The position numbers and the translations under genes were made by a program. Shown here one piece after another: positions 10,599 through 18,292 of a stretch of DNA of 64,000 bases. The DNA comes from Pseudomonas sp. RC10 (lineage in GTDB: Bacteria; Pseudomonadota; Gammaproteobacteria; Pseudomonadales; Pseudomonadaceae), in the NCBI RefSeq assembly GCF_038397775.1, contig NZ_CP151650.1, positions 4,898,001 through 4,962,000 of the forward strand, given 5' to 3'. Position 1 is the stretch's first letter, and every line of letters starts with the position of its first letter. The notes beneath the pieces were generated by a model, which worked only from the letters and a program-made list of their open reading frames with translations, had not been told where the DNA came from and made no database searches.

Positions 10599-11234
10599 TC
10601 AAACTGCCCCTACCGCCCGCTTCGCCTTTTCCTTGGCCCCGCAGACGTTCATCTGGCACCACCGCCGACGCCCGTTTTTGGAGGTATCCAGAAACAGCCA
10701 GTCACAATCCGGGGTCGCGCACACTTTCAATCGCGCCAGATCCGGCGACGTCAATAATCCCGCCGCCTGCACCGCCAGACGCCCGGTAAAGCCCGCGACC
10801 ATGTCATCCAGGGTTTCGAGCCCACGCCAGCGCCAAAGCACGCCCATCGGCGTTGACACCAGCGTCCGTTGCGCCGCTGTCTCGACCAGCATGGCATTCA
10901 GGGTCTCCAGCGCCGAGACATCCGCCGCGCGCCCCAACGCCAAGCCGAGGAACAAGCGATACAGCGACTCGCGGACCGCGATCAGGCCCTTGAAGGCGGT
11001 GACCGTATGCCAGGACGACTCCCCCACCACCTCCAGCAATCGCTGATGCTCATCCGGCTCGATCAGACCCGCGTGCCTGAACCAGTGCACGATGTCTTCG
11101 AGGTTCGACAGTTTGTCTACCACCTCCGTCAATGAGCTGCCAGGGCGCCGACCGTCGCAACTGTTCAGGTAGTCGAGCACACTCACGCCGCCGACCAACC
11201 GGATGGCGTTGATTTTCAACTGACCGATGGACAT
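10599..11234 (-). CDS. ABATE-domain / CGNR-type zinc-finger protein, candidate transcription regulator
   Basis: A 211-aa protein. The N-terminal part (GGVSVLDYLNSCDGRRPG, then WFRHAGLIEPDEHQRLLEV and AFKGLIAVRESLYRLFLGLA) fits the ABATE stress-response domain. The C-terminus CATPDCDWLFLDTSKNGRRRWCQMNVCG is the CGNR zinc-finger region, although the usual CGNR reads CGAK here. ATG 11234 was preferred: the upstream ATG at 11261 has no ribosome site and lies inside a perfect palindrome (11249-11266) that may be its own operator. It follows the sulfation operon on the same strand after 125 bp and may regulate it (inference). Confidence 0.75.
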   Translation of the reverse strand: MSIGQLKINAIRLVGGVSVLDYLNSCDGRRPGSSLTEVVDKLSNLEDIVHWFRHAGLIEPDEHQRLLEVVGESSWHTVTAFKGLIAVRESLYRLFLGLALGRAADVSALETLNAMLVETAAQRTLVSTPMGVLWRWRGLETLDDMVAGFTGRLAVQAAGLLTSPDLARLKVCATPDCDWLFLDTSKNGRRRWCQMNVCGAKEKAKRAVGAV

Positions 11235-11248
11235 CGCCCGCCCCTGCC

Positions 11249-11266
11249 ATTGATTGAGCAATCAAT
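11249..11266. promoter_or_regulatory. Perfect palindrome ATTGATTG-AG-CAATCAAT
   Basis: Eight-base arms with a two-base spacer, 15 bp upstream of the CGNR gene start and about 95 bp after the cysC stop. Its form and place suggest a regulator operator, possibly autoregulatory. Confidence 0.5.
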
Positions 11267-11359: not shown

Positions 11360-11986
11360 CTATAAACCGGAGGCTACAGCCCTTTCAGGCGCCCCTAACC
11401 ACTCATCAATCACAGCCGCCGCTTCGCACACCCCAAGCTGGTCGCTGCGAATGTGCACCTCTGGCCACACCGGCGCCTCGTACGCCGAATCGATCCCCGT
11501 AAAGCCACGAATCTCACCCTGCCTCGCCCGTCGGTACAGGCCTTTTGGGTCACGTGCCTCTGCCACCGCCAACGGCACATCGACGAACACCTCGACGAAA
11601 CGTTCGTTGCCGATGATCGAACGGGCGTGATGCCGAGACGCGCGGGAAGGCGAAATCAGCGCCACCAACACCGTCAGCCCTGCATCTGCCATCAGCGCCG
11701 CGACTTCCGCGACCCGACGCACGTTTTCCTCCCGATCAAGGTCGGAAAAACCCAAGTCCCGACACAGCCCTGTGCGTACGCTATCGCCATCGAGAATGCA
11801 GGTGTTTAACCCGCGCGCCCGCAAGATCGGATTCAGATGGTCAGCCAGGGTGGATTTCCCCGCCGCCGACAGCCCGGTGAACCAGATCACACGCGGGCAC
11901 GAGACGCCCGGGGTGATCGCGAACGAGCGAAACGGATAGGCGACCAAATGCGTGGCCGCAGGGAAAAAATGCTGGGGACTGTTCAT
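11360..11986 (-). CDS. cysC: Adenylyl-sulfate (APS) kinase
   Basis: A 208-aa kinase converting APS to PAPS. Seen: P-loop [13 protein letters not shown] (about 36-48), [31 protein letters not shown] (about 66-96), a SPSRASR segment, [22 protein letters not shown] and [11 protein letters not shown], all typical of CysC. GGGAGG lies six bases before the ATG. It is the last gene of the operon, 20 bp after the methyltransferase. No ATP sulfurylase accompanies it, so APS must come from the core pathway. Sitting with a sulfotransferase, it probably supplies PAPS for a dedicated sulfation rather than for cysteine synthesis. Confidence 0.92.
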
Positions 11987-12006
11987 GAGCTCGCCTCCCT
12001 GGCGTT

Positions 12007-12801
12007 TCAGGCGATGGCCTGGTGAATGATGAAGTCCGCGTGCATCGGGTCGTAGACCCGCTTGAAATCACCGAAACTTTGCTGGATCGAGAAGCCTGCC
12101 GCCCTGAGTTCGCTGCGCAACTGCGCCGGAAGAAGGGGAAACACCCGCAACTGATAGCGGGCGCCGTCGGCGAAGGTGTAGACAAACTCACACAGCGAGT
12201 CATGCAGCGCGCCAATGGTGACCTTCGCCGTCTTGCCGCAGTAGTAATACTGGCCGGATGACGTGAAGTGCCCGGCAAGAATGGCCTGAAAGTTTCGTTG
12301 ATCGATCAGCAACATCCCCCCCGGCTTCAGCAGGCCGCGAAAGCGGCGCAGCGCCTCGATCCGTTGCTCACGGTCGAAGAGATGGCAGAGCGAGCTGCCC
12401 AGGCACACCACGGCATCGAATGATCCAAGCCGATGCCTTCGTTGCAGACGATTGAGATCGGCCCAATCGCTCTGGTAGATCGGAATATGAATGTCGAGCC
12501 GTCCCAGGTTGGCCCGCGCCTGCTGAACCATGGTCGGGCTGCCGTCGCAGGCTGTGACCTCGAAACAGGCTTTGCGCAACTGGGCGGCGTGATAGCCGCT
12601 GCCCGTGGACGCGTCGAACACCCGGCAGGCCCCGGCGGCGAGCAATAGATCGGTGAAAAAATGCCCCTCACCTGCAGCGCGTTTGTCCCAATCGATCAAT
12701 TCGTCCCAGCGGCTGACGAAATCGGCGTTGTATTGACGGGCGTAATCAGCGTCGGCCGTATCAGCCAACCTGACGGGTGAAGAGGCTTGGTTGAGTAACA
12801 T
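12007..12801 (-). CDS. Class I SAM-dependent methyltransferase, glycine/sarcosine N-methyltransferase-like
   Basis: A 264-aa protein. The segment [31 protein letters not shown] (about 20-50), the SAM motif [17 protein letters not shown] (about 59-75), [24 protein letters not shown] and [26 protein letters not shown] follow the glycine/sarcosine N-methyltransferase pattern. The tail [20 protein letters not shown] also fits. It probably N-methylates an amino-acid-like substrate. ATG 12801 has AGGGAG upstream and overlaps the previous gene by 41 bp; a longer frame to 12867 is possible but lacks support. Confidence 0.8.
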
Positions 12802-13948
12802 GGCTGGCTCCCTGTTGGCGGATTTTATCGGCGAACGCCTGGTATTTACGGCCCAGTTCGCAGGCATGAGCCGCTGCGTCCTGCACCTTCATTTCGTGCG
12901 TGAAGTAGCCCAGCATCGTTTCCATGACGTGCATCTGCTCCCGGCCAAACTCGACGGAGCCATCCGCGTGGATGATGTCGATGCCGTCCTGTTGCTGACC
13001 GATCTCGTTGAGTTTGATCGCGACCTCACGCTTGAGGCCGTACGGCAGGCCCAGCAAGACACGCCCCATGCCCACCTTCACCGGATAACCGCCCGGCAAT
13101 CCGTCCGGACCTGGCGCATGAAGATGGGCCTCGGTGTCGGAAAACAGATGTTCGATCACCGAAACCGCCGACATGGCTGTGAGGTATTGCCCGTCGATCC
13201 CGCCGAGTCGCCGGAAGGTGTCGCACACGCAGCCGAAAATATCCCGGTTGCGGAAGTAACCGGTGTATTCCTTGTCGCCAATCCAGTACGTCAGGTCGAA
13301 ACTGGCGTTCGGTGGCAGCCCGCGCCGTGGCACGTAATGGCTGAAATAATGCTGACCCACGAGTTTGATCTTCACTTCCTGCGGCTCGCACCGGGCCAGC
13401 CGTGCAATGGCGCTGCGGGTCGCCGGGACGAGGTTGGCAATGTTGCCAATCCCCACTGTTGGCGCCATGCCCACCTTGTACAGCACGGCGTTGACCGCAT
13501 CGGGAAACGCCGCGTTGACGACCAGACTTTTCGGACACGCATGTTTCACGGCCCGCATCAAGGCGTAGGCCGGTGCAAGGTGCATGGGCAGCCAAGGCCC
13601 GAGTTGAGCCTGATCGAGGGCTTCGAACGTGGCCCTCGGCAATTGCGTGATGATCCGCCAGGACTGGAGCGACGCGCAGTTGAGGATGATGTCCGGCCTG
13701 ATGCGCGCCAGGGTTTCTGCATTGCGCTCGATGTCCGATTCGATGAGGTCCATCTTCCAGCACTGAACGTGCGCCTGCACGTCCAGTTGCAGTGCGGCCA
13801 AACGGACCAGATTGCTCAGTCGTGCGACGTTTTCCGGGTCGCGACTGGCGACGTGAAATTCGAACTGATCGCGGGGCACGAGGATTTGCAGAATCTGCAG
13901 GCACAGATTCCCGCCACCGACGATAAGCAGCCTTTTTTTGCGTTGCAT
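12761..13948 (-). CDS. Rossmann-fold NAD(P)-binding protein, saccharopine-dehydrogenase-like
   Basis: A 395-aa protein opening KKRLLIVGGGNLCLQILQIL, a dinucleotide-binding GxGNxxxxI variant, followed by VASRDPENVARLSNLVRLAA. DIILNCASLQSWRIITQLP resembles the second part of saccharopine-dehydrogenase-type Rossmann domains. The C-terminal two thirds (LVGQHYFSHYVPRRGLPP, GGYPVKVGMGRVLLGLPYG) match no family I recognise. Probably an oxidoreductase making or reducing an imine or carbonyl intermediate of the operon's product. Transcribed between the SDR (35-bp gap) and the methyltransferase. The reaction is unknown. Confidence 0.6.
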   Translation of the reverse strand: MQRKKRLLIVGGGNLCLQILQILVPRDQFEFHVASRDPENVARLSNLVRLAALQLDVQAHVQCWKMDLIESDIERNAETLARIRPDIILNCASLQSWRIITQLPRATFEALDQAQLGPWLPMHLAPAYALMRAVKHACPKSLVVNAAFPDAVNAVLYKVGMAPTVGIGNIANLVPATRSAIARLARCEPQEVKIKLVGQHYFSHYVPRRGLPPNASFDLTYWIGDKEYTGYFRNRDIFGCVCDTFRRLGGIDGQYLTAMSAVSVIEHLFSDTEAHLHAPGPDGLPGGYPVKVGMGRVLLGLPYGLKREVAIKLNEIGQQQDGIDIIHADGSVEFGREQMHVMETMLGYFTHEMKVQDAAAHACELGRKYQAFADKIRQQGASHVTQPSLFTRQVG

Positions 13949-13983
13949 GATGAATCTCCAGAAGCGATTACGTTGCGCCGGGA

Positions 13984-14715
13984 CTAGCGCGGGTAGGCCC
14001 CGTTATCCACTGCGATGACTTTTCCCGTGAGATGGCGGCTGTGATCGGAAAGCAGAAACATGATCACGTCAGCGACCCCTTCGGGCTCGATGGGGTCCTT
14101 GAGAACTTCCTGACGCTCGTACTCTTTGCGGCGATGCTCAGGAATGCGGTCGTGAATCGAGGTATTGCGGATCAGCGCGGGCGACACGGCGTTCACCCGA
14201 ATCCGAGGGGCGAAATTCCAGGCATTGGCTTTCGTCAGCCCGATGACGCCCGCCTTGGTGGCGCCGTACAGCGCATCCATGCTGCCGACTTCACCGGCCA
14301 CCGAGGTGATGTTGATGATGTTGCGGGTGTGTGGGGCGTTCAGCTCTTGCTGAGCGAAATCTCTGGACAAGTAGACCAGCGACTTGAGGTTGACCTTCCA
14401 TATTTCGTCGATCTCACGGTCGCTGTATTCGTTGACGCTTTTGCCGTGGTAAATCCCCGCGTTGTTGATCAGGCCGTGCAAGGCGCGGTGGTTGTATACC
14501 CCATACAGTCGGCTGATGAACTCCTTGTAAACGGATGGCCGGGAGAAGTCGGCAACGTGGGTTTCCAGTTGATGGACGGCTATTTTGCTCTGCAAATCCC
14601 GCAGACCGGCCTTGTCCTTGTCGGCGGCAATCACGTAATACCCCGCCTCCACGCAGGCCTTGGCGGTGGCTTTGCCGATGCCGTTCCCTGCGCCGGTGAT
14701 GACGATCTTCTTCAT
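13984..14715 (-). CDS. Short-chain dehydrogenase/reductase
   Basis: A 243-aa classical SDR. Seen: GAGNGIGKATAKA cofactor motif (residues 7-19), NNAGIYHG (NNAG, about 87), Ser in INITSVAGEVG (about 137), catalytic YGATK (about 151-155) and the family end LTGKVIAVDNGAYPR. The Asp after the second strand (AADKDKAG) suggests NAD preference. The start overlaps the sulfotransferase stop as ATGA, showing translational coupling. Substrate unknown; part of the orphan operon. Confidence 0.85.
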   Translation of the reverse strand: MKKIVITGAGNGIGKATAKACVEAGYYVIAADKDKAGLRDLQSKIAVHQLETHVADFSRPSVYKEFISRLYGVYNHRALHGLINNAGIYHGKSVNEYSDREIDEIWKVNLKSLVYLSRDFAQQELNAPHTRNIINITSVAGEVGSMDALYGATKAGVIGLTKANAWNFAPRIRVNAVSPALIRNTSIHDRIPEHRRKEYERQEVLKDPIEPEGVADVIMFLLSDHSRHLTGKVIAVDNGAYPR

Positions 14716-15449
14716 GAAGGCTCCTGCTGCACGAACTGGTTCATGCGCTCATAAAACGGTCGGTGAATGCGGTAGTACGCCATCAGGTGCGGGTGGGTCT
14801 GGAGGGGGAGATCGTCGAACGTGTCAGGTGAAGCAACGATGCCACTGCTACGCTCAGCGGCCCGGTGCCAGCTACGCCACGCCATCCATTGCGGCGGGCA
14901 GGAGGGTTCCCAACTCAGGGCGTGCGGCAGAAATTCCAGCTGCAAGTGATCGCAGAGTTTGCGCACGGTGTGTTCCGGACGTTTCGCCAGATCATCGCCA
15001 TTGACGACGTAGGGAATTTTTCCGGTGATCTTGGTTACGCGGCAGAAGATGTCGTAGAGCGCACGATGACCGATGGCGTCCATGGGCATCTGCTCGAACA
15101 TCGCGAAGTGCGACACGATGCTCCGGGCGGTCTCGCGGATGATGAACACGTGCTGCTGTTCCAACAGAAATTCGGCGTCGGCGCCCAACTCGTCCGGGCA
15201 GTGGTAGCACATGTCTTTGTGAAACACATGGCGCCGCTGGCGGGTCGAGCGCAGCAGTGCCTTGACGCCCTCATACGTGCGCGGTAATCCGCAGTTCAGA
15301 TCGTCATGAGGGATGGCGGACCGTTCATCGAAGGCGACTGAGGCGAAGGGTTCGTGAAACACCTCGAAATCCCCCCGTTCGATAAACACCCGCTCCAACG
15401 CCGTTGAACGAGAGCGAGGGTGCGCCCAGAGCGCGATCATGCGATTCAT
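14712..15449 (-). CDS. Sulfotransferase-family protein
   Basis: A 245-aa protein with an N-terminal PAPS 5'-phosphosulfate-type loop, ALWAHPRSRSTALERVF (about 6-22), followed by FEVFHEPFASV. HVFIIRETARSIVSHFAMFEQMP (about 101-123) resembles the 3'-phosphate-binding strand and helix. This subtype is often annotated as sulfotransferase or P-loop NTP-dependent. The APS kinase four genes downstream supports PAPS use. ATGA overlaps at both ends couple it to the transaldolase-like and SDR genes. Confidence 0.75.
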   Translation of the reverse strand: MNRMIALWAHPRSRSTALERVFIERGDFEVFHEPFASVAFDERSAIPHDDLNCGLPRTYEGVKALLRSTRQRRHVFHKDMCYHCPDELGADAEFLLEQQHVFIIRETARSIVSHFAMFEQMPMDAIGHRALYDIFCRVTKITGKIPYVVNGDDLAKRPEHTVRKLCDHLQLEFLPHALSWEPSCPPQWMAWRSWHRAAERSSGIVASPDTFDDLPLQTHPHLMAYYRIHRPFYERMNQFVQQEPS

Positions 15450-16678
15450 GATGCACGCTCCATGGGCAATCGCATCGGGGCGCTGATTGACCGGGCACGA
15501 GGGGTGTACCCTGCAGCAATCCCTTTGACGAAAGCGAGCAACGTGTCCTCCCCGTCAGAAGCATATTGGCTCGCCGTGCGGAACGCCGGATGCGCGGCGA
15601 ACTGCCAGGGCGCGAGATCGCCTTCAAAGTACGCTTGATTGAAATAAGGAATCGCGATGAGTCGTTGCAACACGCGCTTGGGCATCTGCACCCATCCACC
15701 CGCCGGGGTAATCGGCTGCTTCTGCAGTTGACGGCGAATCAGGAACGCGATGATCTGCGGGGTCAGGGTGTAGAGGGTCGTATCGGCTCCCGTGCGTTGC
15801 AGGTGCCAGCAGTGTTCCCGGCCGCAGGCATCAATGTCGATTTTCAGGCTGCACAGCAGCAGGCGGGCGGGTGTCTGATGACGCCGCATCAAGGCCTGTA
15901 TGGCTTGATAGACCGCGATTTCCGCCCAGCGTCGGTCCGATGCAGTCAGCCGCAACCGTCGCCGCTCGGCCTGGTGCTCGAACTCGCTTTCAGCGCCGAG
16001 TCGACCGATCATGAAGCTGATCACGTACTGCGCGGAATCGGTGTTGACGCCCCGAAGCCTGGCGCGCAGTTGACCCGCGTTAATGGCCTTGAGGCACGCC
16101 GCGACTTGAGAGACCGTGAAGCAGAACGTGTTGTTGATGGAACATCCCTGCGCCACCAAATCTTCAATGGCCTGATAGCCCTCCTCACTGCCAGGCACTT
16201 TGATCATGACGTTGGGTGCCAGAGCGGCCAATTGCAGCCCTCGTGCGACCATCGCATCAGCGGTCATCCCCTGCGCACCGGGGATCTGCGCGGACAACCA
16301 GCCCTGGCGACGACGTGACGCGACCCAAAGCGGCTCCATTGTCGCGGCACCGAGGGTGATCACGTGGTCGTAGAGTTGGCGTGCCTTGTCGGCATCGCTG
16401 AAACTGGCCGGTAATCCGGACAGAAAATCACGCCACCGCCGTGGCTCGCTCAAGACAGCCTGAGTTATTAAACAAGGATTGGTAGTTGCGCCACTGATGC
16501 CGTTCAAGCCTGTAGCGAGCGCGTCCGGCATCCACTGTTCAATGACGGCGGACATGCTCGGGTATTTCATGAGCAGTGTGTGTTTAAACGCGATGTATAC
16601 GGTTGGAGAAGCGTCCCACCACACTTCGGAATCCATATTTCTTAGTTTTAAAAGGCGAACGAATTCTGGGACATCCAT
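15446..16678 (-). CDS. Transaldolase-family protein, first gene of orphan operon
   Basis: A 410-aa protein with transaldolase signatures: VWWDASPTVYIAF (about 19-31), GATTNPCLITQAVL (about 63-76), NVMIKVPGSEEGYQAIEDL with the Schiff-base lysine candidate (about 157-175), and GCSINNTFCFTVSQVAACL. The region after about residue 230 is longer than in metabolic transaldolases and unfamiliar, so this is probably a specialised aldolase acting on a secondary-metabolism substrate. ATG 16678 has AAAGGA upstream; an in-frame opening to 16741 lacks a site. It is preceded by an AT-rich promoter region with two dyads. Confidence 0.8.
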   Translation of the reverse strand: MDVPEFVRLLKLRNMDSEVWWDASPTVYIAFKHTLLMKYPSMSAVIEQWMPDALATGLNGISGATTNPCLITQAVLSEPRRWRDFLSGLPASFSDADKARQLYDHVITLGAATMEPLWVASRRRQGWLSAQIPGAQGMTADAMVARGLQLAALAPNVMIKVPGSEEGYQAIEDLVAQGCSINNTFCFTVSQVAACLKAINAGQLRARLRGVNTDSAQYVISFMIGRLGAESEFEHQAERRRLRLTASDRRWAEIAVYQAIQALMRRHQTPARLLLCSLKIDIDACGREHCWHLQRTGADTTLYTLTPQIIAFLIRRQLQKQPITPAGGWVQMPKRVLQRLIAIPYFNQAYFEGDLAPWQFAAHPAFRTASQYASDGEDTLLAFVKGIAAGYTPRARSISAPMRLPMERAS

Positions 16679-17285
16679 GATGTAGAGTCCTTTCTGCGAT
16701 TTTTTGTGAGTCAACAAAAGGTCCCAAAGAATTCTGGGCAAAATGCCAGTCTATTCAGACTGATAGTCCGGGGCTTTGAACCGTCGGACCTAAAGATGGA
16801 TCCATGATAATGCCCTGTCAAATCCGTTTTGATGGTTTTTTAATCACGAATAGTTATAAGAAAAAGATAAGACCTCATTAACAATTCAAAACTATTCAAC
16901 CCCGATTTTTATATTCATTTGAATATCCCCGAACGAGGATGAAACTAAATGGCGTCAGGGTATTGACGATACTTATCAGGACAATCTCAACAAGTCTTAC
17001 TATTTATTGACATTCTTAATGATGTGAAACCACTCAGTTAAAGATGACGCTCACTTAACGACAGGGCAAAGTTTCACAAGGGCTCTCGACGTATCGGTTT
17101 TAACGTTAATCCTGCCCGTCATGATGTTGCCTCAATCAACCCCGACTCGCGATATGCACCCCGGCGCGGCACGCAAATCGCAGACAGTGCTTGAGGTGGA
17201 GCGAAACCTGCTGCCATCCTCGCGTTCATAACGCCAAGCCCGGCAAAAGCGGGGCAAAAAACGACCTGAACCAAGGAGACTGGCC
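16679..17285. other. AT-rich intergenic region, 607 bp
   Basis: No gene is seen. Between about 16790 and 17100 the composition is clearly more AT-rich than the surroundings, with A/T runs such as GGTTTTTTAATCACG and TTTTTATATTCATTTG. It contains the promoter region of the orphan operon (minus) and of cytochrome b561 (plus). On the minus strand a TTGACA hexamer (rc at about 16816-16821) could be a -35 box, but no good -10 was found. Confidence 0.6.
16702..16719. promoter_or_regulatory. Dyad TTTTGT-N6-ACAAAA upstream of orphan operon
   Basis: Six-base arms 24 bp before the transaldolase-like start, a possible operator. A second dyad, CAGTCT-ATTC-AGACTG, lies at 16747-16762. No regulator is assigned. 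Confidence 0.4.
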
Positions 17286-17828: not shown

Positions 17829-17866
17829 GCCTGACTCACTCCCATCACCGAGGCGCTGTCGTCCCC

Positions 17867-18292
17867 TGTAGGCGCGAATTCATTCGCGAGACGGAGGTTC
17901 AGGCGACACATGCATGTCGCCTGTTCGGGCCTCTCGCGAATGAATTCGCTCCCACAGTTAAAACCGCGTTCGCCGCGATCGGCAGGGTGCCGCTGAACCC
18001 TGTGGGAGCGAATTCATTCGCGAGACGGAGGTTGAGGCGATACATGCATGTCGCCTGCTCGGGCCTCTCGCGAATGAATTCGCTCCTACCGTTAAAACCG
18101 CGTTCGCCGCTATCGGCAGGGCGCCGCCGAACCCTGTGGGAGCGAATTCATTCGCGAGACGGAGGTTCAGGCGATGCATGCATGTCGCCTGTTCGGGCCT
18201 CTCGCGAACGAATTCGCTCCTACGGTTCAAATCGCGTTCGCCCCTCTCTACGGGGCGCCGCTGAACCCTGTGGGAGCGAATTCATTCGCGAA
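17867..18292. repeat. Tandem REP array, 134-bp period, three full units plus a partial one
   Basis: Units begin at 17867, 18001, 18135 and 18269, exactly 134 bp apart. Each unit has the left REP (GCGAATTCATTCGCGAGACG), a central palindrome (GGCGACA-CATGCA-TGTCGCC in unit 1), the inverted right REP (CTCGCGAATGAATTCGCTCC) and a spacer with CCGCGTTCGCCGC. Unit 4 stops after the left REP. Unit-to-unit changes are few, indicating recent tandem duplication. It fills the 511-bp gap between cytochrome b561 and the HlyD gene. Confidence 0.92.

Follow-up and report, generated by a model that had tools for sequence, protein, structure and literature searches.

We describe here an operon in the chromosome of Pseudomonas sp. 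RC10 that combines a transaldolase-family enzyme (TAL), a sulfotransferase (ST), two dehydrogenases (SDR and ROS), an N-methyltransferase (GSMT) and an adenosine 5'-phosphosulfate (APS) kinase (CysC). It lies in the window, the whole stretch of 64,000 nucleotides that was analysed, which corresponds to positions 4898001-4962000 of a genome consisting of a single contig of 6.71 Mb. A preliminary description made from the sequence had placed six open reading frames (ORFs) on the minus strand within 11360-16678, and we find them at the same coordinates. The features are given below in the order of transcription; sites I and II are the two main chromosomal places at which the operon is found, the window representing site I.

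16823-16856, minus strand: A-rich element just upstream of the promoter-like 9-mer, common to sites I and II
16814-16822, minus strand: promoter-like 9-mer TTTGACAGG, which holds a consensus -35 and is conserved across operon starts
16747-16762, minus strand: leader inverted repeat CAGTCT-GAAT-AGACTG, with paired arms in site-I leaders
15446-16678, minus strand: TAL, an enzyme of the transaldolase/fructose-6-phosphate aldolase (FSA) family, with Schiff-base Lys181
14712-15449, minus strand: ST, a sulfotransferase of the type using 3'-phosphoadenosine 5'-phosphosulfate (PAPS), Pfam Sulfotransfer_5
13984-14715, minus strand: SDR, a short-chain dehydrogenase/reductase by Pfam and NCBIfam
12761-13948, minus strand: ROS, an NAD(P)-type dehydrogenase with a predicted lactate/malate dehydrogenase fold and no Pfam family
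12007-12801, minus strand: GSMT-like N-methyltransferase dependent on S-adenosylmethionine; the longest ORF begins at 12867
11360-11986, minus strand: CysC, APS kinase by Pfam and NCBIfam
10599-11261, minus strand: CGNR zinc-finger/ABATE transcriptional regulator, the final gene of the unit; start codon uncertain

The genes are tightly packed, much as first described: TAL and ST share an ATGA overlap at 15446-15449, as do ST and SDR at 14712-14715, and the gaps do not exceed 35 bp (35 bp between SDR and ROS, 20 bp between GSMT and CysC). Translation of GSMT most likely starts at ATG 12801, in which case the GSMT and ROS genes overlap by 41 bp, and the TAL start at 16678 is favoured by most of the aligned homologs shown; residue numbers for TAL refer to the 431-residue ORF that starts at 16741. 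The family assignments of the preliminary description agree with Pfam and NCBIfam for five genes, and its 'Rossmann' gene is predicted to have the lactate/malate dehydrogenase fold. It had also missed one member of the unit, the CGNR gene 98 bp downstream, which usually accompanies the operon.

The same gene set recurs in other Pseudomonas genomes. Among 298 genomes of the genus searched with ROS (E 0.001), 37 have matches, 35 of them strong (own genome included) and two very weak. TAL matches are present in 35 of the 298, comprising 29 strong (at least 41% identity, own genome included), two distant and four very weak. Every one of the 29 genomes with a strong TAL has a strong ROS, and six have a strong ROS without a strong TAL; roughly a tenth of the sampled Pseudomonas species carry the operon. 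The five core genes (TAL-ST-SDR-ROS-GSMT) are all present by tblastn in 27 of the 35 ROS loci besides that of our own genome; counts among these 27 complete loci leave out the window and the near-identical locus of Pseudomonas sp. SLFW (L032), whose ROS is 98% identical to that of the window. CysC accompanies 25 of the 27 (not L047 or L066), so that ST and an APS kinase occur together in 25, and 24 have the CGNR gene (it is missing from L037-L039, and in L040 it is placed more than 5 kb beyond CysC). A major facilitator superfamily (MFS) transporter gene is present in 20 of the 27 (19/19 at site II, 1/8 at site I), and a HAD sugar-phosphatase-like gene in 18 (18/19 at site II, 0/8 at site I) as well as in L083.

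All 79 gene comparisons from ten chosen locus pairs give pairwise dN/dS values (Nei-Gojobori) between 0.029 and 0.299, indicating purifying selection, with HAD and MFS compared at site II only and CGNR in one site-I pair only. Because the set recurs in other genomes and the genes compared are under purifying selection, the six genes are not together by chance, and the term 'orphan' used in the preliminary description suits the operon as to function and not as to conservation. The remaining eight ROS loci comprise two that are truncated, L067 at its contig end and L042 by an insertion within the sulfotransferase gene, whose front part is in L083, and six with ROS alone or ROS plus one SDR. In the genome that holds L042 and L083 (G126), an insertion of about 13 kb divides the ST gene, with HAD, TAL and the front of ST on one side and the remainder on the other. 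One of the 27 complete loci, L052, has TAL broken into two frames; its genome (G182) carries two operon versions, L037 and the divergent L052.

Site I lies between a cytochrome b561-like gene (named by eye) and a DUF72 gene, although the two flanks are not both seen at every site-I locus, and site II is a different chromosomal place, with genes of the sigma-factor, FecR and TonB-receptor types nearby in many loci (named by eye). The flanks of L052 match neither main site; as its genes cluster with the site-II versions, it is included in the site-II counts. A ROS tree of 39 rows, built without L067, sets the 19 site-II rows apart from all others by a branch with support of 100/99. The two sites share their promoter region: TTTGACAGG is found no more than 420 bp upstream of the match to the first gene in every one of the 30 operon starts tested, those of the window and SLFW among them, or 31 of 31 with L083, and on neither strand of the six lone-ROS loci. 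We consider that the CGNR protein probably regulates this shared promoter. A palindromic operator, TCAAA-N4/5-TTTGA, was considered at the promoter and dropped, as its left half differs between operons. Nine of ten site-I leaders (not L040) contain a 6-bp inverted repeat about 60 nt downstream of the 9-mer, with three different paired arm sequences, and in a crude random control such a hairpin arises in 0.56% of 20,000 random 80-mers. This repeat could serve as an operator or fold into an RNA hairpin; an Rfam scan of the window gave a single sub-threshold match, elsewhere than the leader repeat.

The aligned residues of ST and CysC support PAPS-dependent sulfation. ST matches Sulfotransfer_5 at E 5e-17, and W8-S13, S15, T16, Arg107 and Ser115 (A3 numbering) are invariant in all 12 aligned relatives, in segments that we take to be the PAPS-binding loops. 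CysC scores 221.8 bits against TIGR00455 (cut-off 138.7) and conserves the Walker-A GKST and RDPKGLY motifs. TAL matches TAL_FSA at E 1.1e-27 and is predicted to adopt the (beta/alpha)8 fold of the transaldolase/FSA family; K181 is invariant in 16 aligned family members and falls on the Lys in each of five reference sequences shown. The residues support an aldol step through a Schiff base. Q152 and M244 are likewise invariant in the 16, and are aligned to the Glu and Phe of five reference transaldolases shown. Compared with Neisseria gonorrhoeae TAL (7bbw/3clm), Escherichia coli TalB and FSA, the window TAL thus has Gln at TalB Glu96, and Met in place of TalB Phe178 or FSA Tyr131, the TalB positions being taken from PDB titles, the M244 match being made by eye, and Tyr131 being the acid/base numbering given in PMC13259622. 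Two Pseudomonas genomes without ROS have a lone distant TAL homolog of 29-33% identity (L081:9872-11164 and L082:9974-11206), directly upstream of a bacteriophytochrome-like gene, with a heme-oxygenase-like gene intervening in L081 (named by eye). In both, the Schiff-base motif reads NIMVSVP, with Ser for Lys, and these homologs are likely pseudo-enzymes.

GSMT falls below the equivalog cut-off of NF051855 (226.8 against 350 bits), and its closest solved relative is the glycine/sarcosine N-methyltransferase of Methanohalophilus portucalensis (E 2.8e-53). The equivalents of Arg167, Tyr206 and His138 of that enzyme are retained, the carboxylate-binding Arg167 within a DQRN motif conserved at the 97% level among 27 sequences, whereas the amine-binding Asn134 is replaced by Ser (in a conserved CLGSSLCH motif) and Met218 by Val. 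The residues support N-methylation of an amine that bears a carboxylate. Neither Pfam nor NCBIfam gives a family match for ROS at E 0.01, which sets the protein apart from known lactate and malate dehydrogenases, although its overall predicted fold is theirs. A reading of ROS as a saccharopine-dehydrogenase-like or opine dehydrogenase was set aside, the Pfam matches in relatives being weak and at or near the cut-off, and the lactate/malate dehydrogenase fold is preferred.

Six loci retain ROS without the rest of the operon. In five it is the sole operon gene and stands close to cytochrome b561-like and DUF72 genes, an arrangement also seen in the window, and in L041 it is joined by an SDR 49% identical to that of the window. 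Because the lone copies are nested among site-I operon versions, requiring at least three changes on the ROS tree, independent reductions of the operon are likelier than a primitive lone state, with the caveat that L064, L052, L077 and L041 have long branches and their exact placement is unsure. Seven lone-ROS comparisons give pN of 0.14-0.23 against pS of 0.62-0.80, with synonymous change near saturation, and the lone genes are therefore also kept as proteins. H200, the catalytic-type His, is replaced by Gln in a clade of four lone copies (L043, L044, L045 and L048) and is kept as His in L041, L064, the operon versions and three distant outgroup rows. We also note a 37% identical ROS relative in a genome of the phylum (L075:9971-16644) near alanine-racemase-like, amino-acid ABC permease-like and phosphoenolpyruvate-mutase-like genes, as named by eye, and because of these neighbours the family may elsewhere act on amino- or phosphono-acids.

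We favor, with moderate confidence, the view that the operon is self-contained and regulated and directs the biosynthesis of a small, very polar, sulfated and N-methylated metabolite that is probably secreted. The proposal builds on gene content, conservation, the predicted TAL and ROS folds, aligned key residues and the shared promoter-like element, and from these we infer every reaction, the order of steps, the product and its function. TAL would form a Schiff base on Lys181 and transfer or add a dihydroxyacetone-type ketol unit, with an aldehyde (probably a sugar phosphate) as acceptor, giving a new ketose skeleton. The HAD enzyme of 18 of the 19 complete site-II operons would then remove the phosphate, a task that would require another phosphatase in RC10; a phosphorylated sugar is proposed as an intermediate because site II has this gene. 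SDR and the lactate-dehydrogenase-fold enzyme would adjust oxidation states, the GSMT-like enzyme would N-methylate an amine adjacent to a carboxylate, and ST would sulfate a hydroxyl or amine, with the PAPS supply boosted by the operon's own CysC. At site II the MFS transporter would move the product; transport is proposed because the gene is present, which does not show its direction. The interpretation in the preliminary description, a dedicated small-molecule pathway, is largely but not fully supported: the PAPS, Schiff-base and N-methylation residues favor it, but three operon enzymes depart from textbook active sites.

Several observations weigh against this proposal. Neither of the known acid/base residues, Glu96 of TalB or Tyr131 of FSA, is present in TAL, so its reaction may be something other than a standard aldol addition. 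The catalytic pair of lactate dehydrogenase is numbered His195-Asp168; in a weak sequence alignment (E 0.49) its His falls on H200 of ROS and its Asp on Pro175, and ROS seems to be without the Asp partner. A sequence search found no convincing solved relative of ST. No amine-introducing enzyme is present among the operon genes, and the window's operon has neither phosphatase nor transporter, the best relatives elsewhere in the genome being 36% and 38% identical. Where the MFS gene is present, its product scores best in NCBIfam against carriers of lactate and sugar acids, with every match below cut-off, so transport could run in either direction.

Three other explanations are less likely than biosynthesis. 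The operon could sulfate and methylate an environmental compound, such as a plant metabolite, and then export or store it; this is improbable, as a dedicated transaldolase-fold enzyme for C-C bonds and a phosphatase would be hard to account for and the five core genes stay together in 27 of 35 loci, even though the patchy distribution (29/298 genomes), the combination of sulfotransferase, methyltransferase and MFS transporter, and the retention of lone ROS after loss of the other genes would all suit it. We give still less credence to the idea that the operon serves the catabolism or primary metabolism of an unusual sugar and that its sulfotransferase is mis-annotated. In its favor, sugar-catabolic clusters in two annotated Shinella plasmid stretches contain proteins with about 40% identity to P0240, which is in turn distantly related to TAL, the MFS transporter resembles sugar-acid and lactate carriers, and for ST, as noted above, the sequence search gave no convincing solved relative; however, sulfotransferase, methyltransferase and APS kinase are all absent from the annotation of those Shinella stretches, and the PAPS-loop and APS-kinase residues are conserved in the operon. 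Synthesis of a sulfated or methylated glycine-betaine-like osmolyte kept in the cell, like the betaine made by GSMT, is equally doubtful: the nearest solved methyltransferase relative does belong to betaine synthesis, but the amine-side pocket differs as described, 20 of the 27 complete loci have an MFS gene, and a zinc-finger regulator and a phosphatase are atypical of osmolyte synthesis.

Conservation of the operon with an established primary-metabolic function, which the preliminary description had named as contrary evidence, was considered and dropped: ROS is rare in the class and phylum (3 of 274 and 5 of 299 genomes, our own counted in each), and the operon was not seen in the six class or phylum ROS loci read (L075-L080). 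Relatives of ST occur in 23 of 274 class genomes (E 0.001, own included), many of them weak, and four such loci from three class genomes have no TAL, ROS or GSMT neighbour. Plasmid searches returned 5, 64 and 26 records; among the matches listed are the P0240-related proteins on Shinella plasmids, and for TAL the operon was not seen around the four places read, one of them without annotation. P0240 is 38% identical to TAL and P0326, a distant ST, is 48% identical to ST; ST relatives of 48-49% identity are present in three Burkholderia or Paraburkholderia records. P0240 and P0326, possibly on one contig, suggest that the cluster also exists in a distant form, which might be Burkholderia-like because P0326 shares 56-58% identity with ST proteins that bear Burkholderia or Paraburkholderia names.

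Outside the operon, the window contains three tandem REP-like units with long inverted repeats at 17852-18291, between cytochrome b561-like and EmrA-like genes (named by eye), spaced 134 bp apart, with copies 91% and 88% identical to the first.

If the biosynthetic proposal is extended, the operon could represent a new class of natural-product pathway that dispenses with nonribosomal peptide synthetase (NRPS), polyketide synthase (PKS) and adenylation enzymes. A transaldolase-fold enzyme using neither known acid/base solution would build the carbon skeleton, and N-methylation and sulfation would turn this into a signal resembling an opine or a sulfobetaine; of the six dehydrogenase-only genomes, four have an altered-site enzyme that might have been repurposed, for example in sensing, using or neutralising a neighbour's product. 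We offer this extension tentatively. What lies in about a tenth of the sampled Pseudomonas species is an apparently intact, regulated small-molecule operon. Its conserved promoter-like element lends itself to induction tests, TAL is a candidate for new aldolase chemistry, and the operons without CysC and the lone dehydrogenase genes amount to a natural experiment.

The operon lacks the signature enzymes on which natural-product cluster finders rely; amidinotransferase, NRPS and PKS families are absent among the operon proteins scanned with Pfam and NCBIfam, as the preliminary description had said of the latter two. It had also recognised no characterised cluster with this set, and full-text literature on the gene set and related sulfated products likewise gave no paper on the gene set among the matches listed. 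Parallels are offered by known sulfated metabolites. Bulgecins (ATCC 31433) resemble the proposed product in being sulfated, a likeness of description; PMC5472815 presents them as sulfated glycopeptides with a polyhydroxy amino-acid core, for which a transketolase step is one suggested route, a route proposed to involve NRPS and glycosyltransferase parts that are not seen in the operon. The saxitoxin (sxtN/sxtO) and cylindrospermopsin (cyrJ/cyrN) clusters, according to PMC2885083, each have a predicted PAPS-dependent sulfotransferase with an APS kinase. The operon makes the same pairing, a likeness by gene content, and because the pairing is known from those clusters we regard it as of the sulfated-metabolite type and not as a new category, although unlike them it is centred on a transaldolase-fold enzyme.

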